A stretch of DNA of 64,000 bases, from contig OV277872.1 in assembly GCA_922989275.2 (NCBI GenBank), positions 29,967,619 through 30,031,618 of the forward strand. The letters are read 5' to 3'. This stretch comes from Gari tellinella (Eukaryota > Mollusca > Bivalvia > Cardiida > Psammobiidae). The notes under the pieces are model-generated. The model worked only from the letters and a program-made list of their open reading frames with translations. It searched no databases and was not told the DNA's origin. A program made the translations under genes and the position numbers. Shown here piece by piece: positions 3,678 through 61,839 of this stretch (positions are counted from its first letter, which is position 1; the number at the start of each line of letters is the position of its first letter).

Positions 3678-3844
3678 GTATACACGAATAGTATGTGCCC
3701 TTAAAGGACAATCCGTAAACGCATTCAACGTATTCTAGTTTAAATATAGTGTGTTTCCGAAAAATGATAAGTAATAACCAAAATAATACCAATGACTTGG
3801 CATAATCGTTCATCTTGCAATAATTAAAAAAAAGAAGTATTAAA

Positions 3845-17307: not shown

Positions 17308-17627
17308 CGGGGTTCCAGATAAGGGGGGTATTTCAAAAACTAAAAATCTTTATTTCTGCTTTAAACCCTATGGTGTAACTTATCATTAGACTCGTCTCGA
17401 AGAAGACATCATAGGATTTGGTGTTGAAATAAATGAAAACATGTTGGATTTGTGCAGTTAACTCCCTAGTAACATCATAGGATTTGGTGAAACCCTATGG
17501 TATCACTACTCATTAGAATCGTCTTGAAGAGACCATTCTAATGAGTAGTAACATCATAGGATTTGGTATTGATATAAGTGAGAAACTGTTGGATTTGTGC
17601 AGTTTACTCCCTCTTATCTGGAACCCT
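17308..17627. mobile_element. MITE family S, inserted at the 5' end of the first H2B-like frame
   Basis: The left end GGGGTTCCAGATAAGGGGGG is inverted relative to the right end CCCTCTTATCTGGAACCCTG. Internal inverted words are CATTAGAATCGTCTTGAAGA and the AGACCATTCTAATGAG arm. The element supplies the ATG and first ~17 codons of the open frame that runs into the histone-like sequence, so that ATG is not a native histone start. Confidence 0.7.
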
Positions 17628-17632
17628 GTTTT

Positions 17633-18045
17633 TGTCGGTTAAAGGGGCTGGAATTGCAGTATCAGAGAAAGCCGACACGAAAGCAAAGGCCGTAGGTAAC
17701 ACCAAGGAGGAAGAGACTATCCCTCTAATTAGGCAGGTGCATCCTGATACTGGATTGTCGAGCAAGGCCGTGTCCGGCATGGACAGTTCCATCAACGCCA
17801 TTTTTAAGAGAATCACTGCCGAGGTATCCAGATTTTCTCACCAGGACTGGAAATCATCAATGCTCAGTAAAAAGATCAAGACCAACGAAGGCACCAAGGC
17901 AAATGACGCACGTAACACTGAATCACAGAGGAAAACGAAGAGGTCAAAATCATATTATATCTACAACTACAAGTATAAAGTCTTGAGGCAGGTGCATCCA
18001 GACACTGGCGTGTCAGGCAAGGTGTATCCATCAAAGACAGCTTAA
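17633..18045 (+). pseudogene. Histone H2B-like tandem partial copy 1
   Basis: The frame stays open to TAA at 18043-18045. Its order is: an H2B-like lysine/alanine-rich N-tail (around V-S-E-K-A-D-T-K-A-K); then, with the alpha-1 region missing, the loop-1 motif R-Q-V-H-P-D-T-G followed by alpha-2 and loop-2/alpha-3 ([15 protein letters not shown]); then a second N-tail (K-R-S-K) with an alpha-1 equivalent (S-Y-Y-I-Y-N-Y-K-Y-K-V-L) and a second R-Q-V-H-P-D-T-G, ending soon after. In canonical H2B, alpha-1 precedes the V-H-P-D-T-G loop once. This is therefore a tandem H2B fragment pair, or equivalently a permuted H2B, lacking most of the C-terminal helix. The upstream ATG at 17578 lies inside a MITE. 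It is likely a pseudogene, but the frame is intact. Confidence 0.7.
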
Positions 18046-22880: not shown

Positions 22881-23432
22881 TCTTTTTTTTTGTAAATATT
22901 TGTTTTCTCTATTTTTGTGGATGCTAAATCGTTATCAAACATATTAAGGGTGTTTTTGCGTCTAAAATCAACGTCTTCGCTATTTGCTTTGAGTAATGAA
23001 AATAAAAATAATTCCGGTGTATTCATACAGCTACTATACAGATAAACCTGCTACTGTACAGATAAAGCTAAGTTTATTATGCTACCCCTTTATTATATCA
23101 TCGGAGGCTGTAGTGACGGGATAAAATGTTTTGCATGGGGGATTCCTGTGGCGCATGGGACAACCGCTCTTGGTCATCAAATGGAAAAGTCGGCAATTGA
23201 TAGATGATTGCTGCATTCCGTGCTATATTGTATTGACTATTACATGTAGCAGTTTTGTTAAGGACAACTTATTATCAAAACGGCGTGAAATCGGCATTTC
23301 GCATCGACCAATCCGCTTCGATCTTACTGAGACTTTTCTTTAAAAATATGTTGACAGTGCATGGGAAAACAGGGTATATTTTCGTCGTTTAGACTCTGCC
23401 TAGGGTAAAAATTTCATTCTCTTATTTCATTT

Positions 23433-23768
23433 CATCCTGATACTGGATTGTCGAGCAAGGCTTTGTCCGTCATGAACAGCTTCGTCAACGACAATTATGA
23501 GAGAATCACTGCCGAGGTATCCAGATTTTCTCACCAGGACTGGAAATCATCAATGATCAGCAGAGAGATCAAGACCACCGACGGTCTGCTTCTGCCCGGA
23601 AACGAAGACACCAATGCAACTGACGCACGTAACACTGATTCAAAGAGGGAAACGAAGAGGTCAAAAGCATACTATATCTACAACTACGTGTACATGTATA
23701 AAGTTTTGAGACAGGTGCATCCAGACACTGGAGTGTCCAGCAAGGATTATCCATCAAGGACAGCTTGA
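23433..23768 (+). pseudogene. Histone H2B-like tandem partial copy 2
   Basis: The open frame begins at the loop-1 motif H-P-D-T-G, then alpha-2 ([16 protein letters not shown]) and loop-2/alpha-3 (S-R-E-I-K-T, L-L-L-P-G). It continues through an N-tail-like K-R-E-T-K-R-S-K into alpha-1 (Y-Y-I-Y-N-Y) and [11 protein letters not shown], with TGA at 23766-23768. It matches copy 1 closely, including the non-canonical [10 protein letters not shown], so the rearrangement predates their duplication. Copy 1 carries an in-frame 18-nt deletion relative to this one near L-L-L-P-G. No ATG with a histone tail precedes it. Confidence 0.7.
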
Positions 23769-30590: not shown

Positions 30591-30707
30591 GTTTATGATT
30601 GCTGTAATTGTTGTTTTGGGCAACAGTTCAGAAACAATCATGAAGATGAGCCGAATTAGTACAGACCATTACCGGTGGGCTTGTTTAGGAAACATACATA
30701 TACATAT

Positions 30708-30977
30708 AAAGTGTTCCCTGACTACAACGACACTCAATGGGAGACAAAGATTATGTGTATTGTTGGGAGGCATTCGTTATAGGGAGGGAACTTTACTTAC
30801 ATGGGCAAACAGCTTGAATCCTGATCAGACGCAGCGTAACGCGGCGTCTGATCTGGGTACGAGCTGTATGTCACTCGTCAGTATGTCTTTTTTCTGTCTA
30901 AACGTCCATTATGTCAGAAAAACAGCGGACATCAATTTTAAGGTGACAATATTGCATCAGTGTAAGCGTTGGACTAA
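30708..30977. mobile_element. MITE family P copy, truncated on the right
   Basis: It begins AAGTGTTCCCTGACTACAAC and contains CACTCAATGGGAGACAAAGA (the subterminal words in inverted order), the hairpin CAGACGCAGCGTAACGCGGC, and the family interior on the opposite strand from the copy at 6788. Its far end stops where family R begins. A 148-codon frame across it is a repeat by-product. Confidence 0.65.
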
Positions 30978-30978
30978 C

Positions 30979-31182
30979 AGTAAAACCTCGCTATTACGAC
31001 CACTAAAACGAAGGTTTGTTGATTGTATAATAGAGAGGTGACAGCTTTAAGCAAGGTGACAGTGAAACAGAAAGCTCCTAAAGGAGCTTTCTGTTTCATT
31101 GTCACCTTGCTTTAAGCGGTCACCTACCGTATACACCCTAATAATTAACATCATTTAGTGGTCGTAATAGCGAGGTTTTACT
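30979..31182. mobile_element. MITE family R (AGTAAAACCTCGC termini)
   Basis: The left AGTAAAACCTCGCTATTACG and the right inverted CGTAATAGCGAGGTTTTACT extend to about 29 bp of perfect terminal repeat. The centre is a perfect hairpin with arms GCTTTAAGCAAGGTGACAGT and complement around AAGCTCCTAAAGGAGCTT. The high identity of both arm pairs indicates a young element. Confidence 0.85.
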
Positions 31183-32045: not shown

Positions 32046-33625
32046 ATGAATCTCCTGTTGATATTTGCCGCGGTTGTTGGTAAAGTAGAATTTATTCCGA
32101 ATGTTAATCGATTATCTATAAACTGAGATCACTTTAGTTTACCCAATATGCCATAAGCATTGATTTAGTCCCCCCACTGTAGAGAATAGTTCAAGTTTAT
32201 ACAGTGGTGGGGCGTCGGTAGTACGAATAATGACTCATTAGCTACTATTTGGTTGCTTAGAATATAAACCATGTCGGAACCATTGTTTCTCGGTTCACTG
32301 CCCAACGGGACAAAAGCTCTTAAACTTACAAAAACAGTTTTGATGTGGAAACATCATATTTCGATAAATAGCAAAACGAATTCCCCGAAGCATGACATTC
32401 GTACTTATTTGGGGGGTTAAAATCAGTTTAAGAGTGGAAATAGGTAAACACCACTCACCGTTCTCCATTTATTTTTAATGTTTACGTACATACGCTACTT
32501 ATCGGACGTTCATGGTTGCTACTCTTTTCGGAGAAGAAGTAACACCCCGGTCACACAGAGCCATCGGTGATAGATCGGTTGTTTTTTTTCGCCAAACTAG
32601 GGAGGGGACCGATGACAAGCTATTTACTACCGACATCACCTATTGGCCACCTGTTTTCCACCTATCAATCGCTATTGGGGAAAGATGAGTTTCGTCGGCG
32701 AAAAATCACCGATTGGGATTTTTAAACGTGCTTAAAATTCTCGATCGGTGAAAATATTTTACAAATAACCGATTGACAACCTGTCTACTACCGATATCAC
32801 CGACGAGTCACCGATAAACCACCGATAAACCACCGATGAACTGATACTTACCACCGATGAAAAAAGATGAGAATTAAAACGCAGGATCTCGTCGGTTTGC
32901 ATCGGTTGTTAATGGCAGTTCAATCGGTGATCAGTTGGTGATCAATCGGTTGCCGCCAGCATTTCATCGGTGTTTTATCGGTATTCGTCGATTATTGATA
33001 GGTTGTTGGGCGCTTTTAATCGGTGGCCCATAGGAGTTTATGAGTTGCCAATCGGTGGCCAATCGGAGGCGGGATGGCGTTTCATCCAGTTCAGATCCAA
33101 GTAGATCTAATGGGTTAACATTTAAAAAATTCACGACGTCTTTAATTTTGCAATGAATGTGCCATCTCTTATTTGTTTTTTATAACTTTGGTATCAATTC
33201 TCAATACACACAATAGTCCTCTGTTAAACTTTAACTGTGAAGGTAATATTCTGGTTCCTGTCTCCTGAACGTCTTCCGTGATAAAATGACAAGTTTAAAC
33301 AAAACGGTGCGGAATTTTTTGTTTTATAAGTAGTCTACATCTGATCAGGGTCTACATTGCTTGTCACATTGAAATATATTGTTAAAATCAACCCTAAATA
33401 GTATATAATGTACTATTTTTATTTTGAAATTGGAAATGTCCATTAAATGTTTTTAGGGTACCGCACAGTATAGTTACTACAAAAATGACTGACTTAATTA
33501 TTATGTTTTCTTCAGGTAACACCTGTTCTTCTGAAGCACAGTGCCCAGACAGTGCCTGCAGCCACCATGCGTTTGCCCATAATAACCTTTGCTGGCGTGG
33601 CCATTGTCACTGCTGGCATAGTTAG
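32046..33625 (+). CDS. Two-exon gene for a small secreted six-cysteine peptide
   Basis: Exon 1 is 32046-32079 and ends after the first base of a Gly codon at the donor GTAAAG (32080). Exon 2 is 33516-33625, after the acceptor TTTTCTTCAG, and ends at TAG. The product is 47 residues. Residues 1-12 form a short, very hydrophobic signal-like segment (M-N-L-L-L-I-F-A-A-V-V-G). The remaining 35 carry six cysteines spaced C-x5-C-x4-C-x10-C-x4-C-x1-C, with several His and Trp late in the chain. Such spacing resembles EB-like modules and small secreted disulfide peptides. It is not the exact C-x3-C signature of classical CS-alpha-beta defensins, and I do not assign a family or activity. The 1436-bp intron holds a family C element. 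AATAAA at 33820-33825 could be the polyadenylation signal. The twelve-residue signal is short, so an extra in-frame upstream start or cleavage beyond exon 1 is possible. Confidence 0.6.
32542..33085. mobile_element. Family C (CCGAT-rich) element inside the intron
   Basis: It starts ACACCCCGGTCACACAGAGC after TA and carries the same series of CACCGAT/CATCGGT words as the cluster at 8740. The far terminus is missing; the copy stops after CGGAGGCGGGATGGCG. It lies wholly between the two exons of the six-cysteine peptide gene. Confidence 0.75.
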
Positions 33626-41279: not shown

Positions 41280-44200
41280 TTACACCGGCTGTCCATCCAT
41301 CCAGTCTACTACTAACTGATAAATCCCATCGGTTTTCTCAATTTTCCATCCTCTTCCTACAGGACTTGGACTATCAGTTTGCTGCTCTAGACACCGTCTC
41401 CAAATAGCAGCCTGGTAATTAGCTCTTTGTGTGTGCTTGACTAAACAGTCTAGGCATGGAGGAAGCTGGTGACTCTCTATTTCACCCTTTTTGGCACAGA
41501 ATAGGTCATACCGCAGATCGTTCACCTTTGCTGATGACGCTTTGGGGGCATAGAGCTGACATGTAAAGTTTTCAAGTTTTTGCATTAAAGCAGGAGGGAT
41601 ATCCCATTCCTGGCCTAATTCTGAGAACATCTCTTGGGTTTCATCGCTACTAGTCACCAATTTTAGTGCGCGTGCCTTACCCTTACCAGCAAATGCACTG
41701 ACTGTGTCACAACCCGTGAAAGCATGCATCCCAATCAGTGACTTGCAAACATTATTGCCAACAGCGTCTGCAATTTTCACAATATCCAGCAGCCTAGTAC
41801 GCGTCTTTGTTCCGCACTTCTGAAAAAGTTGACATTCGATCTTTTGGTGGAATGCCAGCGCCATAATGAAAACATCTGTATCCTCTGAGCAAATCACGAC
41901 GGAACTGTACCCCTCTGTTGCAGCATGGGCAGCATGCAGAAGGAGGCGTCCATCTGCTTCTTCGTGACTGCATTGAAGTCCCAGTACCTCTTCGCTTCCG
42001 TTGCATGTGATTTTGAAGCATTTCTCTTCAACATTAGCACACAATATTTTCCTCTGTAGCATTGCTCTGTTTTCGGCTTTCATCCACTCATGCACCAGGA
42101 ATGCAACAAGACTATTCTTGTTGGCCACACTGCTAAGGAAACGTCTCCACTGTCTAACAATGTGCTTACTTGCTATTTGCTGAAGCTGATGACTGCTTTC
42201 ACCACCACGTAATGTCAGTTCACTGTTCTTAATTGAGACGTCCTTGTACGTGTCAAATACTATATCTATTTTATCACTGTCTCTACCCTCTCGAAGTGCC
42301 ATCGTGAAAATAGTGCTTGCCACATCCCCAAAGGTGCATTGGTCTCCTCCGACTCTCTGCACGAGGTTCATTCCGTCAATCACGGAGGCAGACGTTTGCG
42401 GCACACTTTCAACTAAGCCAACCATTTTCTGTAAGGTTGAGGCTAATGCAGCTTCGTTGGTTTTTCTGAGCAAACCATCTGGTGTTGAAAGGGACCATGG
42501 CAAAGGACCAAGAGGGTGTGAAAAAATTACTTCCATCTGGAGGTTACGCACCTGGGCCATAACTATGATGCGGCCGAACAAGGACCTGTCTGATTTAAGC
42601 ACTGTCAGTCTTCCATTGGATTTCACTTCTTTCTTTTGATTCATGTTGGTGAATGTCTTTAATATGTTGCATTTCATAGGATCATGGAACTTTTTTGTAG
42701 GTGGATCGTTCTGAAGTCGTTCTTCTTTGAATTTTGCATATGATCCTTCGCCAATCGCATGCGCATTTAGGAGGTCTTTCGCAATATCCCTAGGTACTGA
42801 CTTTGCGGTGGATATACTTATAAGTTCTAGGTTTTCAGCAAATGGGTTAACCCAGTCTCTTATCAAATCTGTTACTGCAGTTACATTTTCCTCATCTGTC
42901 TGCGTCCGTGACCTTTGTAGCTCTGTGTGAGAGTTCTTGTGTTTTTCACCTTCAACCATGTCTCTGATTTGACCAAGAAATGCACTGCGATACTCAGCTG
43001 TTGTATAATATCGCTTGATAGCACAAGCGTTCAAGCTGAAGTGTGTAGTTCCACCAGGAGTTTGTGTGTCCTTATTGACAGTGACCTCAGTTGTCTGATC
43101 AACTGGGATGCGACCAAACGTGTTATAGTCGGACATTTCAACGGAGAAGTGTCCAGATTGGAAAGATTCAAACACGCTGGGATATTTCTGTGGCAGGTTT
43201 GTCAGCTCTGCGTAGTAGGGGGAAAGGTACCTAGCATAGTTCAACTTGTCGTATGCAAAGCACCATGGTATCATTTCTCGTATAGCATGTAGATGGAGGT
43301 TCCAGTTGCCTTCACGAGATGCGCGCAGCAACCCAAGCAGTATACCCTCGACAAAGTCTATGTAAGACATCCAGAACTCTGACAACTCACCGTTTCGATG
43401 CCGTAGGTGCTCCATGAAGTTTTCCCAATGAACTAAAAGTTCATTGAAGTGTCTGCTTTGCAGAATGCTGTTTAGCGACGGGCTATTCAAATCTGCAGCC
43501 AAGTCTTTCACTTGGCTCAAAACTTCACAGAACTGACTATTTGAGCCAGGGTGATTTTCCGCAAGCCATGTCTGAAACTCTTCCCATGCAAGTCTCATTA
43601 AGGCCTCGTATATGTACTTATGTACTCTGACTGCCCTGTTATAATGCCTTCCATCTAGGACCCCATTTATGGGTCCTTCAGCTACAATACCAGCTTCAAT
43701 ACAAATTTCCTTTAATCCAGCATCTCTAAATCGCTTTCCTACAATAGCAAGGGCGTTACAAACTGTGTGAAATGCCCCTAGTCTTAGCAAAATGTTTGAA
43801 AAATGTTCTTTTTGCTTCCAAGTTATCTCAGCAGCCTTCGCATACAGTGCCTGGTCCATAACGACCACAACTGTTTCTAGACAAAGCTGATGCCTGATTT
43901 CTTCAGACTGTTTCAGGATTTCGAAAACAGTGTTCATCTCTGTAGCCGGGGCGTTGATTGTTGGCAAATACCCACAATTGTCCTTTGATACTAAAATGTC
44001 ACTTCTTATGCTAATGTTGAAGCCTGTCCAGCTAGGTACGGTTTGATTATCTGAATGCGCTTGTCTTGTAACTACCCACACTAAGCTTATGTTGTGTGAC
44101 ATACGGGCATCGTCTTTTGTTTCATAGTGATAGTTTTCTTGGGTAAGTAGCGGTTGAGGACCTTCGCGTGCACCTGCTACATATACCTCGAGTTCTTGGT

Positions 44201-44720
44201 GATCTACAACCACCGAGCGCTTTTTTTGTTTATCTACTCTAGGGAGCCCATCGCTTGGCAGGTCAGGTCCAAACACGTTTGCCTGCACAGCTATTCCATT
44301 GACTCGATGCGACGTTCCCTTTCCAGACATAGTTTCATCGAGCCTATCTATATTATCCCACGCAAGATTCGTGAAGACGTTGGGTTTAATTGAAGCTGGA
44401 AGTACGATTTTCCTATCGTTAGCAGCTGCTAACTTTTGTAGGCATAGAGTTGTATCATTCTCTTCAAGCTGGCTATATGAAATCCCATGCCCAAGTTTGT
44501 TTAATATCTGAATGAGCTCAACATTTCCCGTCAACGTTTTCACTGCATTTGGCAAGAGTAGGTGCTTTGGTGGTTTCTTCTGACCAAACGTTACCGCATA
44601 AATCAGATCCTGTGCAAATGACTGCACAAGCGTGTTCACTCTTGATGTAGTCTTTACTGAGTTTGGGTCTCCTGTAAGTATACCAACCAGTAAGCGCTCC
44701 AATGAATGTGGCAAGTCCAT
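41280..44720 (-). CDS. Main segment: FEN1/XPG-like (PIN-like) nuclease region
   Basis: There are 1146 codons from the first Met at 44720, although the frame is open back to 44777. The last 230 residues hold the recognisable core: E920-E-A-D923 before L-L-L-H-A, S-E-D947-T-D949, and the block T-G-C-D1005 followed by F-A-G-K-G-K-A-R-A-L-K-L (1010-1020). The last block resembles the G-C-D-Y ... G-I-G ... R-A metal-ligand and H3TH (DNA-binding) motif of FEN1/XPG nucleases. Together with the upstream acidic residues it predicts a metal-dependent 5'-nuclease-like or PIN-like fold. The first 900 residues are unassigned. The frame ends Q-P-V-stop only because it runs into the inverted repeat of the inserted element at 41284; the natural continuation is at 38002. 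Long uninterrupted frame and ordinary codon use indicate recent constraint. Confidence 0.75.
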   Translation of the reverse strand: MDLPHSLERLLVGILTGDPNSVKTTSRVNTLVQSFAQDLIYAVTFGQKKPPKHLLLPNAVKTLTGNVELIQILNKLGHGISYSQLEENDTTLCLQKLAAANDRKIVLPASIKPNVFTNLAWDNIDRLDETMSGKGTSHRVNGIAVQANVFGPDLPSDGLPRVDKQKKRSVVVDHQELEVYVAGAREGPQPLLTQENYHYETKDDARMSHNISLVWVVTRQAHSDNQTVPSWTGFNISIRSDILVSKDNCGYLPTINAPATEMNTVFEILKQSEEIRHQLCLETVVVVMDQALYAKAAEITWKQKEHFSNILLRLGAFHTVCNALAIVGKRFRDAGLKEICIEAGIVAEGPINGVLDGRHYNRAVRVHKYIYEALMRLAWEEFQTWLAENHPGSNSQFCEVLSQVKDLAADLNSPSLNSILQSRHFNELLVHWENFMEHLRHRNGELSEFWMSYIDFVEGILLGLLRASREGNWNLHLHAIREMIPWCFAYDKLNYARYLSPYYAELTNLPQKYPSVFESFQSGHFSVEMSDYNTFGRIPVDQTTEVTVNKDTQTPGGTTHFSLNACAIKRYYTTAEYRSAFLGQIRDMVEGEKHKNSHTELQRSRTQTDEENVTAVTDLIRDWVNPFAENLELISISTAKSVPRDIAKDLLNAHAIGEGSYAKFKEERLQNDPPTKKFHDPMKCNILKTFTNMNQKKEVKSNGRLTVLKSDRSLFGRIIVMAQVRNLQMEVIFSHPLGPLPWSLSTPDGLLRKTNEAALASTLQKMVGLVESVPQTSASVIDGMNLVQRVGGDQCTFGDVASTIFTMALREGRDSDKIDIVFDTYKDVSIKNSELTLRGGESSHQLQQIASKHIVRQWRRFLSSVANKNSLVAFLVHEWMKAENRAMLQRKILCANVEEKCFKITCNGSEEVLGLQCSHEEADGRLLLHAAHAATEGYSSVVICSEDTDVFIMALAFHQKIECQLFQKCGTKTRTRLLDIVKIADAVGNNVCKSLIGMHAFTGCDTVSAFAGKGKARALKLVTSSDETQEMFSELGQEWDIPPALMQKLENFTCQLYAPKASSAKVNDLRYDLFCAKKGEIESHQLPPCLDCLVKHTQRANYQAAIWRRCLEQQTDSPSPVGRGWKIEKTDGIYQLVVDWMDGQPV

Positions 44721-44777: not shown

Positions 44778-45791
44778 TTACTTAATAGTTGCGCGAATAT
44801 GTGACGAAGACTGGTCTATAATCTTATCAATGTCAGTAGATTTTGCTTTCCACAATCTAAGATCTGCTTTGAGAATTTGATTCTCTGTCACAACATCTCT
44901 CAATGTAACATTGTCAGGGACAAGCAACAGTTGTCCCTTACTGTCGGGAAATATATTAACTGACGTTCCGAGTTCTTTCTCGAGTTTCCTACGAATGTGT
45001 TTTCTTGTAGAATGAGACATGTTTTCAACTCCACGGGAAATTATAAAGGATTCTAGTTTCGTAGTTAGTAAAGAGACTGGCGTTATTTCCTTGTTTGGTA
45101 TAATATATTCTCTGATATGTGCGAAAAGATCCCCATACGCAGCACTTTCAACACTTTGATATAAACTGTCCCCGGTTTCATCGTTTTCTTGTTTATGTTT
45201 GGCTTCAGTGTTTATTCCCTTTTGTTTGGTATATAATTTATAGCATGATGCATGATAGTGTGCCTCTGCTGCAACTATGTCTCTACCTGTCATTGCAATA
45301 ATGTGCTCATCTCCCTTTGCAATAGCACATTCTCTCAATGTGTGGTCTGCCCTTAGTTGCAAAGCTTGTGTCAATTTTTCACGCTTATTGCTTCGTTTTT
45401 CGTATTTACTTTTCTTGCAGAAAATACAAACATGGCCATATACCCTTCTGTCTGCAGATTCCCTTTTCGTTCTTTTCGTCTCACTACTGCTACCGCTTGC
45501 TTCATATGTGGAATCGTCTTTTGACTGCCTTTTCAATGTCTCTAAATCCCTTTTCATTGTGAAGACGCTTCGACATTGCCTGTGATAGTAAATGTTTGGA
45601 AGTTCATTGGGGGCAATTTGTGCTGCAACTTCCAGTATAGGTTTGTGGTCTCTTACTTTTGCCGCCTCAAGTAACGTCAGCCAAGACTCTAAGGAGTTGG
45701 GACTGACATGATTGTCCTCTTCGGCAGAGCATACATTTGTTTGTAAAATACATCGTGGTTTTGCAACAGATATACTTTTCTGGATTTCCAT
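44778..45791 (-). CDS. N-terminal segment: two Cys/His zinc-binding-like modules
   Basis: There are 337 codons from ATG at 45791 to TAA at 44778. Two similar modules can be seen: C14-x6-C21 ... H70-x2-C73 (ending Y-Y-H-R-Q-C-R-S-V-F) and C122-x2-C125 ... H180-x2-C183 (ending H-Y-H-A-S-C-Y-K-L-Y). Both have a pair of cysteines, about 50-55 residues, then Y-H-x2-C followed by an aromatic residue and Thr, so they look like duplicates of one metal-binding fold. Between them lies a Ser/Thr/Lys-rich linker. The last 100 residues are charged and probably helical. The family is not recognised by name. The TAA is immediately followed in frame by D-V-P-S-P-P-W-P-F-H-P and on into the next segment, so it is a nonsense break or a recoding site rather than a true end. 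Confidence 0.75.
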   Translation of the reverse strand: MEIQKSISVAKPRCILQTNVCSAEEDNHVSPNSLESWLTLLEAAKVRDHKPILEVAAQIAPNELPNIYYHRQCRSVFTMKRDLETLKRQSKDDSTYEASGSSSETKRTKRESADRRVYGHVCIFCKKSKYEKRSNKREKLTQALQLRADHTLRECAIAKGDEHIIAMTGRDIVAAEAHYHASCYKLYTKQKGINTEAKHKQENDETGDSLYQSVESAAYGDLFAHIREYIIPNKEITPVSLLTTKLESFIISRGVENMSHSTRKHIRRKLEKELGTSVNIFPDSKGQLLLVPDNVTLRDVVTENQILKADLRLWKAKSTDIDKIIDQSSSHIRATIK

Positions 45792-48540: not shown

Positions 48541-49364
48541 GAGTACGAGACTATTGATTGATTATAGTTACATGTATTAGTTTTGTGGGAAAAGTATCGC
48601 ATCCACTTTAAGTTAGTTTCATACATTTTATATAGTTTTTATGTAGTTTCATGCTCAATCATCAGGCAAGATAGCCCAAGGAAAATTCATATATATTTCA
48701 TATAGTCTGTATATTTTGTTGATGCCTTAGTTAGTGTCCGGCTAAAGACACTGTCGCCTCATAGAACGCCCGATTTAAACACAGTTCAAGCTTAGGGCTC
48801 TAGCATTAGGGTTCAGGATCCAAACTGTTTGTCACTCGTATCGATATGTTTTAAGGCATACTAAATCAAATTTTACTTTGAAACGATCTTGCAAACAACA
48901 AAATTGAAGCAGGCGACAATGAAACGGTTAAGGGGTAAACACGTCGCGGACAATTTGGCAGTGAACGGGTTAAAAGCAAAGGAAACGTAAGTGCAATGTA
49001 ATAAAAAGGGAGCAATGACATTTCTAAAACAAATCTTACAATTAATATTATTCTAATCGGCTAACAGTTATAGCCTAACCAAACGCCGTGATACTGTTCG
49101 CAATGGTCATAAAAGTTTAAGCGGAAACGCGTTTGTTTGCCAACGGTTTCTTATTTGTATATTTTTGGTTTAAGTTGTTAGTGACATATAAGCACGTAAG
49201 GCACGACAGTTATACTTCTTTATGCGGAATAGGATATATCGACTTTTTGGTTTGTTTGGACCATATTTCAGAAGCAAACATGAAAATGAACAATAATAAA
49301 CCTTTGTGATATCTGATATGGGTATTCACTGTTTCTAACATAATACTTATACATAAATAACAAC

Positions 49365-49997
49365 ATATCGTCGGCCTAATATCAAAACCTCGTATTGTCA
49401 GTTTTTAAAATTTAACAGAAGAGACGTGTTTTTTTTATGTCTAGCTATTTAAAACATTGACAAAATCTCTATAAATTTGAAATATACTATTACATGTAAG
49501 ATATCATACTATAATATGTCACTAACTGAATTTCGTCTAAGTACAAAGAATAATTGAGTAATAGTTTAATTATTGTTGTATACGACTCTTTGACATCACC
49601 TTAACACAAATTTATGAATATATCAAATCAAAATATCGTATAGTCAGTTTTTAAAATTTTAAATATCGTATATAGCTCAAATTGCTTCCCATGAATGTGC
49701 ATAGGTAAAAGCCTCGTATTTCAAAAAACATAACAGAAACTAGCAGTTAAAGGTTATGCAACTAGACAAATGCATAGTAAAAACCTTCACTCAAATAAAA
49801 GCTATAATTCTATTGCTTCATATCGTTTCAAAGACTGAGAGATACAGACACATCACAAAACTACATTTTTTTTCCGACCAAGTACGATGTTTTGAAATCA
49901 TGACTTTTGTACCAATCAGTTTACGACATTTCATCAGGTGACTGTTGACAGCTTTTCTCATTGGGATAGAAGTACGGCGTATTGTCAGAATCTGCGT
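49365..49997. mobile_element. Element X, copy 1 (truncated on the right by unit 1)
   Basis: It starts ATATCGTCGGCCTAATATCA and matches the complete copy at 61164-61839 for about 630 bp (same order of TATTTAAAACATTGAC, GATATCATACTATAATATGT, ATTGGGATAGAAGTACGGCG). It breaks off at TCAGAATCTGCGT, where the large TIR unit begins. Non-coding. Confidence 0.75.
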
Positions 49998-51939
49998 AGG
50001 TGCGTTCAAATTGCCGATCTGACACCCCGATCGAACTCGATCACGCGGTCGTACTTGGTCTGCTTTGGGGTCCTGGTCGGTCTGCTAAGGGGTCCTGGTC
50101 GATCGAGAGCGGTCTACATCGATCGAGTTCGGTCGGCCTAACTACTCGGAAATTTGGAACATGCTCCAAATATCCGTGTAGCGATCGAGAAGACTGATGG
50201 TCTGGGAGTAGTCTGGAATCGGTCTAGTAGCGCTCGGGTCAGCTCGAGTACGCAATCGAGTTGATAGAGAATTCTTGTTACATTATTGTGGCGACCTCTA
50301 CTCGATCTGTACCCGATTAACTCGACTCCACAGGATCTGAATCCGACCGTGTTCGATTTCATTGGCTCCATCACCGCAAGGAATAGTCGACCACACTCGT
50401 TATGTTCTCGATTGCACTCGATGTGGTCTTGATTTCTACACGACTGTTATCGACCTCTACACGACCTCTCTCGACCTCAACTCGAGGTTACTATTCCTCT
50501 TTAGCGAAGCACATTTTTTTGTTTTTCACAAGTGGGATGGAAAAGTCGTCGGTTGTTCACTACTTGCTTACATTTAAAATATTCAGCTGCCTATAGGAGG
50601 AGAAACTGCTCTGGCATTGTAACCCTCTTTTATAAGTTCGTCTTTAGAAGGGGCGTATATGGGACCCGTTTCATAAAACTTCGTATATTTTGTCTTTTGC
50701 CACCGTTTTTTGTTGTACGTTTTGTTTGGTTTGTGCGCTAAAATTTGCGTAAAAACAACGTCTCAAACGCGTTTTCTTGCCTTTATTTAGTACAAATAAA
50801 TACATTTTCCTTGTTTACTATAATTGGCAATAATAATGGAGAGGACAATCCCCCCCCCCCTTGTTCCTACGGCTTGCGTATTATGCAATGGCGCTGTTCA
50901 TCCGTCTTTCCGTCCGTGGACTTGTTTTGCTTGTCCGTTCTGTAACGTAAGTATATTTATTCCAATGCGTTTGAAACTTGGTCATTATGTATATAACCAA
51001 ACTGTCTTGCATAAGTTCGATGGCACTAAGATTACCCCAGACACTCAAGAAATATGACCCTTTTATCGACAAAAATGAGCATTTGTGTAGAAAGGCAAAC
51101 ATTAATTTTATCTATCTGTTCAACCCCTTTCAGATTTGATATGGTTGTACAACCTGTGAAGGGATTGGATATATATTACGGGTTTTCCATGTGACTTTTT
51201 TCAGAATTATGCCCCTTTTTTCAGTTTCTTAACCTGTTCTTGCTATTGCTCTATTACCTTTCTCTACTGACCGATGTTAATAACCCCTACAAATGTACCT
51301 CGATTATACCATACCACAACAGCTCAAACAAGACAGTGTTTGGAAATATTTGTATTAAATTTTAGCAAAGTTGTGCCCCTTTTATTGCCAAAATAGGCAT
51401 TTTCTTTGATTTCTGTGCTTTCAAAGGATGTCCCCTTATTCAGAACTTATTGTGTAGAAAAGGCAAGAACTGTATAATAATCAGATTTGATACAAAAAAT
51501 TACGGGAGTTGACATAACATAATTGGTTTCCATGTGACGCATATGTTTTCCCAGTTTTCCTCTTTGCCATAGTGGGTTATTTTTAACACGGGCTTGAATG
51601 TTTAATTATTTCCCGTGTTACTAATAATCCTGTCAGAGAATTTTGTTAGATGTTTTACATGTATTTACTTACTGTGCTGGCGGTCTTTTTGATTGTAAGG
51701 TTGTGGAACAGGGTTTATATTTTATGTACACTGTTCGTTTTTATAGGTGAATATAGGAGATAAGTGTGAGGTTGGGCGCCCCTAAACCCAGGTTTAACCC
51801 CCCAGTGGTTGTTAATGGTTAATTAATTTATAATTGATTATTGATTGCTACTGACCGTACCAAGGCGGGCTCCTATGTTCACTTAGCTTTATGTTTGTCT
51901 TGCGTGTTGTTTTCTATTTAGTGTGTAGATGCAGGAATG

Positions 51940-52005
51940 GTATTGCGTGTGTGTGTGTGTGTGTGTGTGTGGTTGTGTGTGTTTGTTATGGTATGGCTGT
52001 GTGTG
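51940..52005. repeat. GT microsatellite
   Basis: About 13 GT pairs from 51947, followed by GGTTGTGTGTGTTTG and a second short GT run. Confidence 0.95.
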
Positions 52006-52741
52006 TGTTCTGCTTTAGAGATGGGTGTATTGTTTGTGTTGCGTTTCCTGCTTGAGTCTTCTTTCGTATTTATTTGACGCCGACTTGCTGTGCTCTTGTT
52101 GAGAATGCGAAAACACCGGAATTTATGAAGCACAAGATCAGGTTGCTGTCACCCCTACCCGAAACACTCTCCCCTTAAAGTAAGTTCTGCTGCTGATAGT
52201 ATTATGTTAAAGTCTTTCCTGTCAAACCTTGAAGAGTTTCTCTTTCAATTGTGATATATTGTACAATATTTCAATGTATATTTTTTTAAAAAGAGCAGAG
52301 CTGTTGTTTAACAGATCCTGATACATGTAGTAATCAAAATCACCCCGTTAATATCGAAAGGTTATCAAAAACCGTTAATGACATGTTTAGCTCACTTTAA
52401 CAAAGCTCAGGGCAGCTATGTACAATGATCGCCTTTTTCCGACGCTCGCTCGTCCGTGGGTACGTACTTACGCCCGCAAGTTCTTGTGAAGACATATGAG
52501 GCCACAGTTATGAGTGAATCTTCACCAAACTTCATCAAAACGTTGTTCTATATTGAATCTAGGTCACGTTGGAATAATGGTCATGCCGGATCAAAAAAAT
52601 TATCAATAGGTAAATCTTTAGAAAAGCCTGTGAAATTATTTCGAGGTCAACTTAAATATACTCAGGTGAGCGAATTCAGAGCCACCATGGCCCTCTTGAT
52701 GTTTATGTTTGCTAACATAATGTAACTTGGTGACACAGTTG

Positions 52742-52814
52742 TGACTCAACTGGGACTCGAACCCAGGACCTCTAGCTTACCATGCCAATAGTCTAACCAC
52801 TGAGCTACAGAGTC
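52742..52814 (-). tRNA. tRNA-like gene in the 3' LTR of the TRIM (degraded)
   Basis: It has the same 73-nt layout as the 5' LTR copy. A box TAGCTCAGTGG and B box GGTTCGAGTCC are intact, and the T arm (CTGGG/CCCAG) pairs fully. The anticodon arm and D-stem have mismatches (GACT in place of GAGC). Confidence 0.55.
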
Positions 52815-52957
52815 ACACAGAAAAGCCTTTCAACCATTTTACCCGGTTACATACACCCCTCTACACAAGAATTCGTCCCGAATTCTAACTCAAAGAACAC
52901 TCCACGAGTTTCTTATCTTTACCTATATTTCATTCAAACTACCTGAAGAGTTATTTA

Positions 52958-52970
52958 CGTTCGGCGCCAA
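52958..52970 (-). promoter_or_regulatory. Primer-binding site of the TRIM
   Basis: TTGGCGCCGAACG on the minus strand, directly inside the 5' LTR. It would pair with a tRNA 3' end in CGTTCGGCGCCA form; the primer tRNA is not identified. Confidence 0.7.
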
Positions 52971-52992
52971 ATGTAACTTGGTGAAAAAGTTG

Positions 52993-53065
52993 TGACTCAA
53001 CTAGGACTCGAACCCAGGACCTCTGGATTACCATGCCAACGCTCTAACCACTGAGCTACCGAGTC
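52993..53065 (-). tRNA. tRNA-like gene in the 5' LTR of the TRIM, Thr-like (GGT)
   Basis: A 73-nt cloverleaf can be drawn: acceptor GACTCGG/TTGAGTC (7 pairs with two G-T), D arm GCTC/GAGC, anticodon arm TTGGC-ATGGTAA-TCCAG (one mismatch and one G-T; anticodon GGT, threonine), variable AGGTC, T arm CTGGG-TTCGAGT-CCTAG (one G-T), discriminator A. A and B boxes are intact. Whether it is charged is unknown. Its place is inside the LTR rather than in the primer site. Confidence 0.7.
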
Positions 53066-54288
53066 ACCCAGAAAAGCCTTTCAACCATTTCACCGTATTC
53101 TCTAACCGGTTACAATAATGCCCCCTGAACACCAGCATTTAGATACTGCCACCATCCCCAACCATCAAATGACAAGATTAAACGGGTACCATGAACTCAA
53201 TTATCCCACTCGTGTTCCTCATCTTATCCTTCTACCGTCTCCAATATCCAGAAAGCCATTTACCCTGGAATACCTAGCTGATGTACATTGTACTGTAGTA
53301 GATATTCTCCATATTTTTCTTATATATAACTGAGGTCAAGGACAACGTAACAGTAGCTTTCAAATGGTTCACATCACACCAAAACCTCAAGATGTACTCA
53401 CATAAAAATATGGAAATATGTTGTTTAGACAAGTAAGACATGAACACATTTATGATTGAGTTCAAAGGTCAAGGTAAACGCGAGCTGATAATGGTTCGCC
53501 AAACTCCACTATACACAGATGTACTCACAACCAAAGTTTGGTTAATCTGAAGTGTAATAGTACATGTAGATATACCCTTGATAAGCATTTTGTCTATAAT
53601 TGCTGTCAAACTCGATGGTCAAATGCACAGCGACCTCAACAGAACTCTGTTTTCCGATGATGTACGTACACTGTTAGGGGCACAACTAGCTTCGGAAGCA
53701 TAAAAGTAGTATTTTGAAGTTATAGAACAACGAGCAATTAGGGTATTACATGCGTACATGCTTGTAATTAATAGCTCCACAAAATGAGGAAATCACCAAT
53801 TTACTTTGGACGTTTTAGCAATATGTTCCATTTGCATAGATATGGTTGTCAGATGAAGTACTGCCTCAAGCCAACGTCTAGTCGAAGTGTACTAATCATG
53901 GTCCTTGATGAATTGGACAGTGTACACAAAACACACCAATTTCTGTCATTATCCACTTAAATCCGGTACAATCGAGTTGCGATCGTGTACTGATTGAATA
54001 GGGATCGGCTTGATATCGGGTAGAGATCAAGATGATCGTGTTCATCGCTTAAACATCGGGAACCAGTTAGGTGGTCGTGAAGAGGTCGGGTAATGGTCGA
54101 GTAGAGGTCAAATAGTGGTCGACAAAGGTCTTGTGATGGTCTGGTGTAGATCGTATATGATCGAGTAAAGATCGAAATGCCGTCGGGTAGGACCCACGAC
54201 TAACATTATGCTCGAATTCGGTCGGGAAAATACGCCAGTCGGGGCGATCGAGGTCTAGTACTCAGATCGGCAATGTGAACGCACCTTA

Positions 54289-57200
54289 AAGGTGCGTTCA
54301 CATTGCCGATCTGACACCTCGATCAAACTCGATCACGCGGTCGTACTTGGTCTGCTTAGGGGTCCTGGGCGGTCTGCTAGGGAGTCCTGGTCGATCGAGA
54401 GCGGTCTCCATTGATCGAGTTCGGTCGGCCTTACTACTCGGAAATTTGGAACATGTTCCAAATATCCGTGTAGCGATCGAGAAGGCTGACGGTCTGGACA
54501 TGGTCTGAAATTGGTCTAGTAGCGCTCGGGTTAACTCGTGTTCGCAATCGAGTTGACCGAGAACAAATCTTGTCACATTTCTGTGTCGACCTCTACACGA
54601 TATCTACCCGATCAACTCGACTCAACACGATCTAAATCCGACCGTGCTCGATTTCATTTGCTCCATCACCGCATGGAATAGACGACCACACGCGATAATG
54701 TTCTCGATTGCACTCGATGTGGTCTCGATTTCTACACGAGTGTTGTCGACCTCTACACGAGCTCTCTCGACCTCAACTCGAGGTTACTATTCCTATTTAC
54801 GCAAACACAATTTGTTTGTTGTTCACACGTGGGGCGGAATAGTCGTCGGTTTCTAACATTTAAAACAATCAACAAACTATAGAAGGAGAAACTGCTCTGA
54901 CACTGTAAACCTTTTTATACCACCGTATTATTTAATGGCATTGTCCGCCCGTCCGTCTGTCCGTCCGTGACATTGTTTTGCTTGTCCGTCCTGTAACTCA
55001 AGAAAATGTATTCTAATCATTTTGAAACTTGGTCAGCATGTATAGAACCATAGTGTCTTGCTCAAGTTCGATAACCAGCAAGATTACCATAGGCACTCAA
55101 GAGCTATGCCCTTTTTTAGTCAAATATGGGCATTTGTGTAGAAAGACAAACATTCTTTATCTACCTGTTTAACTCATTTCAGATTTGATATGATTGTACA
55201 ATCTGTAAAAGGATAGGATATATATTGTGGGTTTCCATGTGACTTTTCTCCAGAATTATGTCCCTTTTATCGTTTCTTAACCTGTTCTTGCTATTGCTTT
55301 ATTACCTTTATTTATTGACCGATTTTAATAACCCCTGCTACAATTATACCATACAACAAAAGCTCAAACAAAATAGTATTTGGAATTTTTTTGTTTTAAA
55401 TGTTTGGCAGAGTTATACCCCTTTTATTGACAAAATAGGCATTGCGTAGAAAAGGCAAGTTTATTTCCATTCAGATTCGATATGGTGATACAAGAAAGTA
55501 CGGCAGTTGACATAATATGATGGATTTTGAATGTGACGCATCTTTTCCCAGTTATGCCCCTTTTCTCTTTTTGTTCACTTGAACTTGAAAATGTTTTACT
55601 ATGCCTTGATTTTAAAATTGATTGGACGCCGGCTTGCTGTACTCTTGTTGAGAATGCGCAAACACCTGAAATTACGAAGCACAAGAGCAGGTCGCTGACA
55701 CCCTACCCGAAACACTCCTACCTTAAAGTAAGTGCTGCTGCTGATGGTATTATGTTGAAGACTTTCCTGTCAAACTTTAAGGAGTTTCTCTTTCAATTGT
55801 GATGCATTTCACAATATACCAGTGTATATCAACATCCATTAATAATCCCTTTAGCTCACCTGAACAAAGCTAAGGGCAGCTACTATGATCGCATTTTCCC
55901 GACGCTCGCTCGTCCGTGGGTACGTACTTACGTCCACAATTTCTTGTGAACACATTGCAGGTCACAATTATAAGTGAATCTTCTTAAAACTTCATGAAGA
56001 TGAAGATAGGTCATGTCAGATAAAAAAAATAGTCATTTGGTCAGGTTTTAGAAAAGCTTGTGAATTCTCTCGAGGCCACATTTGCGGGTCAATGTTGTAA
56101 TCGACAAAATATTTTCAAAGTTAGAAAATACATGTAGATCATGTAGTATCAAAAAGTAGACCTCTAGGTTAAATCCTTGATACTTTATTACCAACATGAA
56201 AAACGATCGACTTAAATATACTCAGGTGAGCGAATTCAGGGCCACCATGGCCCTCTTGATGATTCTATTGCTAACATTAAAACAAGCATTTAGATACTGC
56301 CATAATCTCCAACCAGCAAATATCCAGAAAAAACGGGTACCATGAACTCTATTCTCGTACTCGGGATTCTCATCTGATCATTCTACCGTCTCAAATATGC
56401 GGAAAGCAATGTTCACTGGAATACCTAGCTGATGTACTTTAGTAGATATTCTCCATATTTTATTTTATATAACTGAGGTCAAGGACAACGTTACAGTAGC
56501 TTACAAATGTTTCACAATCCATCAACATCTAAAAATGTACTGGCATAAAAATATGGAAATATGTCGTTTCGAAAACATTTATCTAATGATTGAGTTCAAA
56601 GGTCAAGGTAAACGTGAGCTGAAAATGGTTCGCGAAACTCCACTATCTACAGATGTACTCGTACCCAAAGTTAGATTAATCTGAAGTGTAATACCGGTAG
56701 TAGATTTGCTCTTGAAAAGTTTTTTTCTATAATTGATGTCAAAATTGAAGGTCAAAGGCACATAGTGCACAGTAATCTGTTATCCGATGATGTACACATA
56801 CACGAACACTTGTATGCCTAGTTCATAAAAGTGAGGTCAAAGATAGAGGTCACCTTGTTCTCAAACTTGTATGATAGCATCCATAACTTATGTTGTATAG
56901 AACATATACCCTGAAGAAACAGGGTACGGAGTCAGAGTCACATCTAGCTTCGGGAGCATAAAAGTAGCATTTTTATAGTGATAGAACAACAATTACGTTG
57001 GGTGTTACATGCGTACATGTACATGCTTGTAATTAATAGCTCCACAAAAATGAGGAAATCACCAATTTACTTAGCAATATGTTCCATTTGCTTATATTCG
57101 GCTATAATGGTAGTCAGCAGAATTGCTTTCTCAAGCCAACGTCCAGTCGAGTGTCGTAATGATGGCCCTTGATGAATTGGGTAGTGTACACAAAACGTTA

Positions 57201-60200
57201 TTATTTCTGTCATTATCCACTTATATCGGTACATCGAGTCGCGATCGTGTACTGATTGAATAGGGGTCGGCTTGAGATCGGGTAGAGATCAAGATGATCG
57301 TGTTCATCGCGTAAAGATCGGGAATCAGTCAAGGTGATCGAGAAGAGGTCGGAAAGTGGTCGTGTAGAGGTCGAACAGTGATCGACGAGGGTCTTGTGAT
57401 GGTCTGGTATAGATCGTTTATGACCGAGTAACGATCGAAATGCCGTCGAGTAGGACCCGCGACCAGCATTAAAGGTGCGTTCACATTGCCGATCTGAGTA
57501 CCTCGATCGCCCCGACTCGCGAATTTCCCGACCGAGTTCGAGCATAATGTTGGTCGTGGGTCCTACTCGACGGCATTTCGATCGTTACTCGATCATATAC
57601 GATCTATACCAGACCATCACAAGACCCTTGCCGACCACTATTCGACCTCTACTCGACCACTTCCCGACCTATTCTCGATCACCTAGACTGATTTCCGATG
57701 TTTACGCGATGAACACGATCATCTTGATCTCTACTCGATCTCAAGCCGATCCCTAATCAACCAGTACACGATCGCGAGCAGATGGTACCGATATAAGTGT
57801 ATAATGACAGAAATTAGTACGTTTTGTGTACACTGTCAAATTCATTAAGGGCCATCATTAGGACACTTCGACTGGACGTTGGCTTGAGATAGCAAGTCTC
57901 CTGACCACCAATTAAAGCCGAATATAAGCAAATGGAACATATTGCTAAATAGTTCAAAGTAAATTGGTGATTTCTTCATTTTTGCGGTGCTATTAATTAC
58001 AAGCATGTACGTATGTAACAACCAATGTAATCGTTGTTCTATCACTACAAGATGCTACTTTTACGCTCTTGAAGCTAGTTGTGTCTCTCACTCCGTGTCC
58101 CGTTTCTTCAGGGTATATATTTTCTATACAACATAAGTTATGGATGCCAATTTTAATAAGTGAGTACATTGTTGGATTGCAAAGTGTCACTTTCACGTCA
58201 CTGTGACCTTGATCTTTAATCTAGTTTATAGAAAGCATCTTGCATGGGTGATATATTCTATACAACATCATCTAAAATTGTCAAATCTGATGTGTGAGTA
58301 CATCTTGGAATATCATAAAATTTTGAGAACAAGGTGACCTCTACCTTTGACCTCACTTTTATGAACAAGGGATACCAGTGTTAGTGGATGTGTACATCAT
58401 CGGATAACAAAGTACTGTGCACTATGTGCCTTTGATCTTCAATTTTGACACCAATTATAGAAAAGTGTATTTCAAGAGCATATCTACTACCGGTATAACC
58501 AAATATTAACCAAACTTAGGGTGTGAGTACATCTGTAGATAGTGGAGTTTCGCGAACCATTTTCAGCTCGCGTTTACCTTGACATTTGAACTCAATCATT
58601 AAATAAATGTTTTCGGATCTTACTTTTCTAAACGACTTATTTCCATATTTTTATGCGAGTACATCTTTAGGTTTTGATGTGTTGTGAACCATTTAAACGC
58701 TACTGTAACGTTGTCTTTGACCTCATTATATAAAACAAAATATGGAGAATATCTACTTTAGTACATCAGCTAGGTAATCCAGTGTACGTGGCTTTCCGGA
58801 TATTGGAGACGGTAGAAGAACCAAATGAGAATTCCAAGTATGAGAATAGAGTTCATGGTACCTGTTTTATCAGGACATTTGCTGGTTGGAGATTATGGCA
58901 GTATCTAAATGCTTGTTTTCTGGGGCATAATGTTAGCAATAGAATCAGGGCCATGGTGGCCCTGAATTCGCTCACCTGAGTATATTTAAGTCGATCGTTT
59001 TTCTTGTGGGTGGTATAGTTTCAAGGATTTGACATAGAGGTCTATTTCTTATACGACATGATATATTTTCTAACTTTGCAAATATTTTGTCAATAACAAC
59101 ATTGACCCACAAATGTGGCCTCGAGAGAATTCATAAGCTTTTTTCTAAAACCTGACCTAATGACCAATTTTTTTTTAATCCGACATGACATATCTTCAAA
59201 CGTGACCTAGAATTTATGAAGAACAACAGTTTGATGAAGTTTGAAGAAGATTCGCTTATAACTGTGGCCTCTAATATGCCTACAAGAAAACGTAAGTACG
59301 TACCCACGGACGAGTGAGCGTTGGGAAAAGGCGATCATAGTAACTGCCCTTAGCTTTGTTCATATGAGCTAAAGAGATTATTAATTGAATTTGATAAAAT
59401 TTCAATTTAAATGGGGTGGTTTTTATTACTATCAGGATCTGTTAAATGAGAACTGTGCTCTTTTTTTAAGTATACACTGGTATATTTTGAAATGCATCAC
59501 AATTGAAAGAGAAACTCTTTAAGGTTTGACAGGAAAGTCTATAACATAATACTATCGGCAGCACTTACTTTTAGGTGAGAATGTTTCGGGTAGGTGTGCC
59601 AGCGACCTGCTCTTGTGCTTCGTAACTTCCGGTGTTTGCGCATTCTCAACAAGAGCACAGCAAGCCGGCGTCCAATCAATTTTAAAATCAAGGCATAGTA
59701 AAACATTTTCAAGTTCAAGTGACCAAAACGTGAAAAAGGGCATAACTGGGAAAATATGCGTTACATTCAAAATCCATTATATTATGTCAACTGCCGTACT
59801 TTCTTGTATCACCATATCAAATCTGAATGGAATAAACTTGCATTTTCTACGCAATTACTATTTTGTAAATAAAAGGGGTATAACTCTGCTAAAAATTTAA
59901 AACAAAAATTCTAAACACTATTTTGTTTGAGCTTTTGTTGTATGATATAATTGTAGCAGGGGTTATTAAAATCGGTCAATATATAAAGGTAATAGAGCAA
60001 TAGCAAGAACAGGATAAGAAACGATGAAAGGGGCATACTTCTGGGGAAAGGTCACATGGAACCCCGTAATATATATCCAATCCTTTTACAGATTGTACAA
60101 CCATATCAAATCTGAAATAAGTTGAACAGATAGATAAAAAATTGTTTGTCTTTCTACACAAATGCCAAAATTTGACGATAAAATGGGCATAGCTCTTGAG

Positions 60201-61093
60201 TGTCTGGGGTAATTGTGCTGGTTATCGAACTTGAGCAAAACATTCTGGTTCTATACATGCTGACAAAGTTTCAAAATGATTGGAATACATTTTCTTGAGT
60301 TACAGGACGGACAAGCAAAGCAATGTCACGGACGGACAGACGGACGTACAACGCCATTAAATAATACGCCCCGTCTGAAGACGGTGGTATAAAAAGGGTT
60401 ACAGTGTCAGAGCAGTTTCTGTAGCTATAGTCTGGTGATTGTTTTAAATGTTAGAAACCGACGACTTTTCCGCCCCACTTGTGAACAACAAACAAATTGT
60501 GCTTGCGTAAGTAGGAATAGTAACCTCGAGTTGAGGTCGAGAGAGCTCGTGTAGAGGTCGACAACACTCGTGTAGAAATCGAGACCACATCGAGTGCGAT
60601 CGAGAACATATCGCGTGTGGTCGTCTATTCCATGCGGTGATGGAGCCAATGAAATCGAGCACGGTCGGATTTAGATCGTGTTGAGTCGATTTAATAGGGT
60701 ACAGATCGTGTAGAGGTCGGCACAGAAATGTAACAAGATTTGTTCTCGATCAACTCGATTGCGTACACGAGTTAACCCGAGCGCTACTAGACCGATTTCA
60801 GACCATGTCCAGACCGTCAGTCCTCTCGATCGCTACACGGATATTTAGAACATGTTCCAAATTTCCGAGTAGTAAGGCCGACCGAACTCGATCAATGCCG
60901 ACCGCTTTCGATCGACCAGGACTCCCTAGCAGACCGACCAGGACCCCTAAACAGACCAAGTACGACCGCGTGATCGAGTTTGATCGAGGTGTCAGATCGG
61001 CAGTGTGAACGCACCTTTATGCTCCAACTCGGTCGGGAAAATTCGCAGGTCGGGGCGATCGAGGTACTCAGATCGTCAATGTGAACGCACCTT
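54289..61093. mobile_element. Large TIR unit 2 (family U), interrupted by unit 3
   Basis: It begins AAGGTGCGTTCACATTGCCG directly after unit 1, with only one or two bases between, and its right end GATCGTCAATGTGAACGCAC is at 61093. It is about 3.26 kb when the inserted unit 3 (57472-61017) is removed. It lacks the TRIM at the corresponding site (about 56270). It shares the body words of unit 1 (TTTCATTTGCTCC, GGTGAGCGAATTCAGGGCCA, ACATGCTTGTAATTAATAGC). Non-coding. Confidence 0.8.
57472..61017. mobile_element. Large TIR unit 3 (family U, 3.5 kb), inverted and nested in unit 2
   Basis: It runs AAGGTGCGTTCACATTGCCG to CAGTGTGAACGCACCTT with TA on both sides (57470-57471, 61018-61019). Unit 1 shows the uninterrupted text ACATTATGCTCG, and in unit 2 this is split as GCATTA / TATGCTCC around unit 3. 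The body is unit 1 in reverse order and complement. The site corresponding to the TRIM insertion is empty here (58922-58937). Confidence 0.85.
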
Positions 61094-61163
61094 AAAGCAT
61101 ACAAAGGGTCATTCATCGCGCTGCATTATATGTCCGAGCTCCAGATATATCAACTGCATGTAC

Positions 61164-61839
61164 ATATCGTCGGTCTAATATCATAACCTCGTAAAGTCAG
61201 TTTTTAAAGTTTTACAGGAGAGACATTTTTGTGTCTAGCTATTTAAAACATTGACAAAATCTCTATAAGTTTGAAATATATAATAAAGATATCATACTAT
61301 AAAATGTCACTAACTGATTTCCGACTAAGTACAAAGGATAATTGAGTAATAACTTAATCATTGTTGTATACGACTCTTTGACATCACTTTAACACAAATT
61401 TATGAATACATGTATAACCAATCAAAATATCGTATATAGCTCAAATTGCTTCCCTTGAATGTACAGAGGATAAAACCTCGTATTTCAAAAACATAACTGA
61501 AAATGGCATTTAAAGGCTATGTAACTATACAAATGAATAGTAAAAACCTGCACTAAAACAATACCTATAATGTATTGTTTCATGTCGCTCCAAAGACTGA
61601 TAGATACAGATACATCACAAAATTACATTTATTTCTGACCAAGTACGATGTTTTGAAATTAAGACTTTTGCACCAATCGGTATACGACATTTCATCATCA
61701 GGTGACTGTTTACAGCCTTTCTCATTGGGATAGAAGTACGGCGTTTGTCAGAATCTGCGTAAAGGCGCAATCTTTCCTAAGATGTAAAAAAGTGATTTTC
61801 TGAAAACTGTACGAGGTTTTGATATTAGGCCGACGATAT
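61164..61839. mobile_element. Element X, copy 2 (complete, 676 bp)
   Basis: The ends ATATCGTCGGTCTAATATCA and, inverted, ATATCGTCGGCCTAATATCA continue for about 30 bp as TIRs. It is flanked on each side by a ~70-bp copy of AAAGCATACAAAGG ... TATATGTCCGAGCTCCAGAT, too long for a target duplication and better read as a tandem duplication of an X-plus-flank unit. Non-coding. Confidence 0.75.

Follow-up and report, generated by a model that had tools for sequence, protein, structure and literature searches.

A miniature LTR retrotransposon with tRNA-like sequences in both terminal repeats in the bivalve Gari tellinella

What are two tRNA-like sequences, each enclosed in one of a pair of direct repeats, doing within a few hundred base pairs of bivalve DNA? 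The locus lies in 64,000 nucleotides from Gari tellinella (the whole stretch that was analysed, from here on the window). It could belong to a host tRNA gene or to a mobile element, and in the latter case the tRNA-like sequences could be in use or simply carried along. We found a complete miniature LTR retrotransposon at 52721..53114 (minus strand), with the following parts:

52721..53114, minus strand: whole element, a TRIM with tRNA-like LTRs, 394 bp
52972..53114, minus strand: 5' LTR, 143 bp, with TGTAAC...GTTACA ends, delimited by aligning repeat against repeat
52852..52971, minus strand: internal region, non-coding, 120 bp
52721..52851, minus strand: 3' LTR, 131 bp

The length, the direct repeats of 131 and 143 bp and the TGTAAC...GTTACA ends that the initial annotation had reported are all present. 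Over the whole element there are between 4 and 12 stop codons in each of the six frames, the longest stop-free run being 63 codons, and the element and both tRNA-like sequences are in sense on the minus strand. The two LTRs are identical at 120 of 131 aligned bases (11 substitutions, plus one 12-bp indel), which corresponds to a K2P divergence of 0.089; because of this divergence we take the copy to be old, and it is probably dead. No further copies were detected within the 64-kb window at E ≤ 1e-3. Exact-pattern scans of collections of viral contigs (four) and of bacterial and archaeal genomes (one) gave 0 matches to the element, a result of little weight, as records of the window's own genome are possibly absent from such collections.

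At the inner edges of the two LTRs we located the short signals from which reverse transcription of such elements would be primed:

52957..52969, minus strand: primer-binding site (PBS), TGGCGCCGAACGT, 2 bp inside the 5' LTR
52856..52862, minus strand: polypurine tract (PPT), AGAGGGG, 4 bp before the 3' LTR

These are the sequence inside one LTR and the purine run inside the other to which attention had been drawn beforehand. The PBS agrees with the 3' end of tRNA-Lys(CTT) at 12 of 13 positions, or 12 of 18 when 18 bases are compared (ungapped, and against a human tRNA, not that of the host). On the same ungapped basis, with human tRNA 3' ends, Lys(TTT) and His both reach 8 of 18. The motif TGGCGCC/GGCGCCA occurs a single time in the 64 kb, at the PBS on the minus strand. 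We also considered the tRNA-like part of the LTR as the element's own primer and found no support for it, its 3' end plus CCA matching the PBS at 8 of 18 positions for the 5' copy and 7 of 18 for the 3' copy, of which three are the CCA itself and the remainder are scattered.

The surroundings of the element are built of diverged units, some inverted and some direct, and this made it possible to look at the insertion site with and without the element:

52717..52720: target-site duplication (TSD) ATAA, left copy
53115..53118: TSD ATAA, right copy
58922..58938, minus strand: empty site in sister unit A (unit 59400-58600, minus strand), with small gaps (1-3 bases) lying within ca. 20 bp
56270..56284, plus strand: empty site in sister unit B (unit 55700-56700), next to two gaps, of 8 and 2 bases

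When the two flanks are joined with one ATAA removed, they align across the site with unit A (GCTAACATTATG in unit A versus GCTAACATAATG in the joined flanks). The claim that ATAA stands on both sides and that the site is empty in two sister units was thus borne out, in units A and B. The element entered one unit by insertion, duplicating 4 bp; arrival by insertion follows from the 4-bp duplication together with the empty site in the paralogous units. The cluster of sister units extends over 49363-61761 of the window and consists of diverged direct and inverted units of ca. 0.5-1.6 kb, as exemplified by the pair 54287-55828 and 61019-59471 (inverted, 92%).

The same data bear on a much simpler view of the locus, namely two tandem-duplicated tRNA genes whose resemblance to LTRs is due to chance. 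Two tRNA-like calls in the same orientation, 251 bp apart, are indeed what a tandem duplication would leave behind. However, the repeats run past the tRNA part as far as the TG...CA ends, a PBS and a PPT sit at the two inner edges, and the ATAA duplication and the two empty sister sites already contradict it. The initial annotation had itself named an ordinary tandem tRNA duplication as the counter-reading; the LTR ends, PBS, PPT, TSD and empty sites together rule it out, and we give it a very small probability.

Having established that the locus is an inserted element, we can turn to the tRNA-like sequences themselves:

52993..53065, minus strand: tRNA-like sequence of the 5' LTR, Thr(GGT)-like (ARAGORN; Rfam RF00005, 56.3 bits)
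52742..52814, minus strand: tRNA-like sequence of the 3' LTR (ARAGORN; Rfam RF00005, 47.8 bits)

Both scores are above the Rfam tRNA cutoff of 29 bits. The E-values of 1.8e-9 and 3.9e-7, and the fact that 1000 first-order shuffles of the element yielded no ARAGORN tRNA call, indicate that these calls are not due to chance. ARAGORN called the anticodon as Thr(GGT) in both LTRs, in the element's sense, and box A (TAGCTCAGTGG) and box B (GGTTCGAGTCC) are intact and identical in the two. In the ARAGORN fit the 5' copy has an intact D stem and one anticodon-stem mismatch, and the 3' copy a damaged D stem and one acceptor mismatch. ARAGORN and Rfam therefore support the earlier statement that each LTR contains a sense-oriented tRNA-like gene. 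The more specific statement, that the 5' copy folds into a Thr(GGT)-like cloverleaf with intact boxes, holds as far as the ARAGORN and Rfam fit and the A and B boxes are concerned. It does not hold for the RNAfold minimum-energy structure, in which only the acceptor and D arms of the 5' copy are kept and which is not a cloverleaf; the minimum-energy fold of the 3' copy is cloverleaf-looking. The changes between the LTRs affect 7 of the 73 tRNA-like positions and 4 of the 58 others, and nothing in these numbers suggests that the tRNA-like part has been under constraint since the element inserted.

Could the element nevertheless have been spreading a functional host tRNA-Thr gene? To our knowledge the threonine anticodons of animals are AGT, TGT and CGT, not GGT. 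In addition, there are stem faults in both copies, and the minimum-energy fold of the 5' copy departs from the cloverleaf. These points count against a host gene, whereas a cloverleaf was fitted to both copies by ARAGORN and Rfam, and seven families of related bivalve elements could encode tRNA-Thr (Kojima, PMC10886601). All in all we regard a working tRNA-Thr gene as very improbable. Since a Thr(GGT) tRNA is not expected in an animal, the tRNA-like part is better seen as the probable remnant of a promoter than as a tRNA gene.

TRIMs with tRNA-like LTRs have been given the name Helenus (Kojima, 2024; PMC10886601). They range over fungi, one plant species and six animal phyla including bivalve molluscs, with 51 families in pteriomorph bivalves (PMC10886601). 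They are 311-1263 bp long, their TSDs in animals are of 4 bp, and the primers of the bivalve families include Lys (PMC10886601). Similarity of the PBS ties the animal members to Gypsy (Kojima, PMC10886601). Our element is non-coding and its 394 bp (143/120/131) are within that range of lengths; each LTR contains a tRNA-derived sequence in which box A (TRGCY...YGG) and also box B (GGTTC) are present; AGAGGGG precedes the 3' LTR as PPT; and the TSD is of 4 bp (ATAA), with unit A fitting the join from which one copy is removed. A candidate PBS, TGGCGCCGAACGT, lies where one would be expected next to the 5' LTR and agrees with Lys(CTT) at 12/13 (12/18), scored on human tRNAs and not on the host's. 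On layout and description we place the element in Helenus as one more member. The initial annotation had presented it as an animal analogue of the plant Cassandra elements. What stands of this is a TRIM with tRNA-like LTRs, with its ends, PBS, PPT, TSD and empty sites; the novelty does not stand, as such elements were already published as Helenus, within a group for which Kojima proposed the name TRIMp3 (PMC10886601). In other words, the structural interpretation is right, and the kind of element had already been described in 2024.

Three other types of short element deserve comparison. Cassandra, a plant TRIM, is alike in having a Pol III-type promoter sequence inside the LTR. However, that sequence is 5S rRNA, in plants, where ours is tRNA-like, and the PBS is of the methionine type according to the accessible parts of two reports (PMC10853983, PMC7215508), where ours is Lys-like. 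No match to 5S rRNA was found in the element at the Rfam gathering score, nor at E up to 5, and membership in Cassandra was rejected, there being no 5S rRNA in the LTR. The biv-TRIM of bivalves likewise occurs in animals, has a short interior and includes a PPT, which is mostly GGGGAGA, as against AGAGGGG in our element (PMC6934838, accessible part). Its repeats of 202-218 bp and interior of 77-80 bp differ from the 143/131 and 120 bp found here, and on these lengths, as given in the accessible part of the report, we rejected membership (PMC6934838). The same part of the text gives no unambiguous PBS for biv-TRIM and describes short tRNA similarities for the interior, none for the terminal repeats (PMC6934838). 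Finally, tRNA-derived SINEs (SINE2) share a tRNA-derived internal Pol III promoter, putative in our element, and a short non-coding body, but SINEs are without LTRs, PBS and PPT. They are moved by non-LTR retrotransposons.

The remaining question is how the element would be transcribed. With intact A and B boxes in each LTR, use of the tRNA-like part as a Pol III promoter is plausible. Runs of four or more T on the sense strand lie as follows:

53072..53075, minus strand: T4 run, 6 bp before the start of the tRNA-like sequence of the 5' LTR
52984..52988, minus strand: T5 run in the 5' LTR, 4 bp beyond its tRNA-like part (TGTGT in the 3' LTR)
52821..52824, minus strand: T4 run, 6 bp before the start of the tRNA-like sequence of the 3' LTR and the first run of T4 or more after the interior

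The 120-bp interior contains no T4, and the run at 52821..52824 is a possible Pol III stop for a transcript started in the 5' LTR. Runs of T4 or longer number 2 in the 5' LTR (shuffle mean 0.99), 0 in the interior (0.81) and 1 in the 3' LTR (0.37). These counts are not unusual, and for that reason we build no strong claim on them. In this copy, Pol III should be stopped ahead of the PBS by the T5 that follows the tRNA-like part of the 5' LTR. A transcript ending at the T4 of the 3' LTR would, barring read-through, have almost no R repeat for strand transfer; for Cassandra an R repeat of 18 bp has been reported (PMC10886601). The T5 run, the LTR divergence of 0.089 and the non-cloverleaf minimum-energy fold of the 5' copy all count against this copy as a working Pol III unit. 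Kojima notes that Helenus still awaits experimental proof of a functional Pol III promoter (PMC10886601).

There is an alternative in which the tRNA-like part has no role in transcription at all. The element would be an ordinary TRIM transcribed by Pol II, and the tRNA-like part a passenger left by an old SINE or tRNA insertion into an ancestor of the LTR. Pol II-driven TRIMs are the usual kind, and three observations are in keeping with a passenger: T5 follows the tRNA-like part in the 5' LTR, the D stem of the 3' copy is damaged, and the changes since insertion show no sign of constraint (7/73 vs 4/58). On the other hand, the A and B boxes are identical between LTRs that differ at 11 of 131 columns, and neither TATAWA nor AATAAA nor ATTAAA turned up when the sense strand was scanned for these patterns. 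The LTRs of Helenus, moreover, are conserved around both boxes (Kojima, PMC10886601). Weighing these points, we find the passenger explanation unlikely, if still deserving attention.

The explanation that we prefer as a whole, and in which we have high confidence, is an inserted TRIM with tRNA-like LTRs that was presumably copied in trans by an unrelated autonomous element. It rests on a single examined copy and is supported by the LTRs, their ends, the PBS and PPT, the TSD and empty sites, the tRNA-like calls with their intact boxes and the lack of a long open frame. Following the established biology of LTR retrotransposons, an RNA reaching from the 5' LTR into the 3' LTR would be packaged. 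Copying would then fall to the reverse transcriptase and integrase of the unrelated autonomous element, probably of the Ty3/Gypsy type, the first strand being primed at the PBS by a host tRNA, probably Lys, and the second by the purine tract. Judging from sequence, the tRNA-like part most likely provides that RNA with an internal Pol III promoter, not with a working tRNA, and this we would put forward with moderate confidence. A more elaborate version would have one Pol III promoter giving two products, a short tRNA-like RNA ending at the T-run that follows the tRNA part and a read-through genomic RNA ending at the T4 of the 3' LTR, with an R of a few bases; we consider it a long shot.

With regard to coding sequences elsewhere in the window, no reverse transcriptase domain was found with Pfam in nine of its ORFs (of 88 stop-to-stop ORFs of at least 75 aa), and a helper element may yet lie among the others. 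Two adjacent minus-strand ORFs, 41280-44720 (1146 aa, the longest in the window) and 44778-45791 (337 aa), have no Pfam match; they may be fragments of a single gene, which could belong to a mobile element. At E ≤ 0.001, at least 280 of 8000 scored candidates are relatives of the 1146-aa ORF. The best 120 of these 280 are 759-1593 aa long, many of them near 1550 aa, and include one with PF00078, which we take to be the reverse transcriptase domain, and two with PF20231. Those among the 120 that are named by organism all come from animals (Nucella, three Branchiostoma, Nymphon, Oculina, Actinostola, Porites and Eleginops), in keeping with an animal host. A protein search with 30610-31035 gave nothing at E ≤ 0.01 among 4 candidates. 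The ORFs 17578-18042 and 23409-23765 contain pieces resembling core histones that fall short of the Pfam cutoff (E 0.00023 and 0.0015), by eye H2B-like and in scrambled order, presumably rearranged pseudogenes.

Among repeats, there is a tandem array at 2600-3682 (282-bp unit, 3.8 copies, 98% matches). The segment 8707-10621 has internal inverted repeats of ca. 81-82% identity, with more copies near 32.5-33.1 kb (32542-33082) at 81-93%, and both are probably foldback elements. A hairpin at 9830-9961 has microRNA matches below the Rfam cutoffs.

Helenus-like sequences are also a warning for annotators, as counts of tRNA genes can include transposon LTRs, which is what was described for rust fungi (Kojima, PMC10886601). 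If the two-product reading were true and kept across copies, it would mean an LTR life cycle gated by a terminator and with a near-zero R, possibly in an animal group for which Helenus had not been reported. Raw sequence has given here an independent TRIM with tRNA-like LTRs together with its insertion record, that is, the duplication and the empty paralogous sites. Whether the genomic RNA of such elements is a Pol III product could be studied on this one, since its T-runs predict where transcripts would stop.
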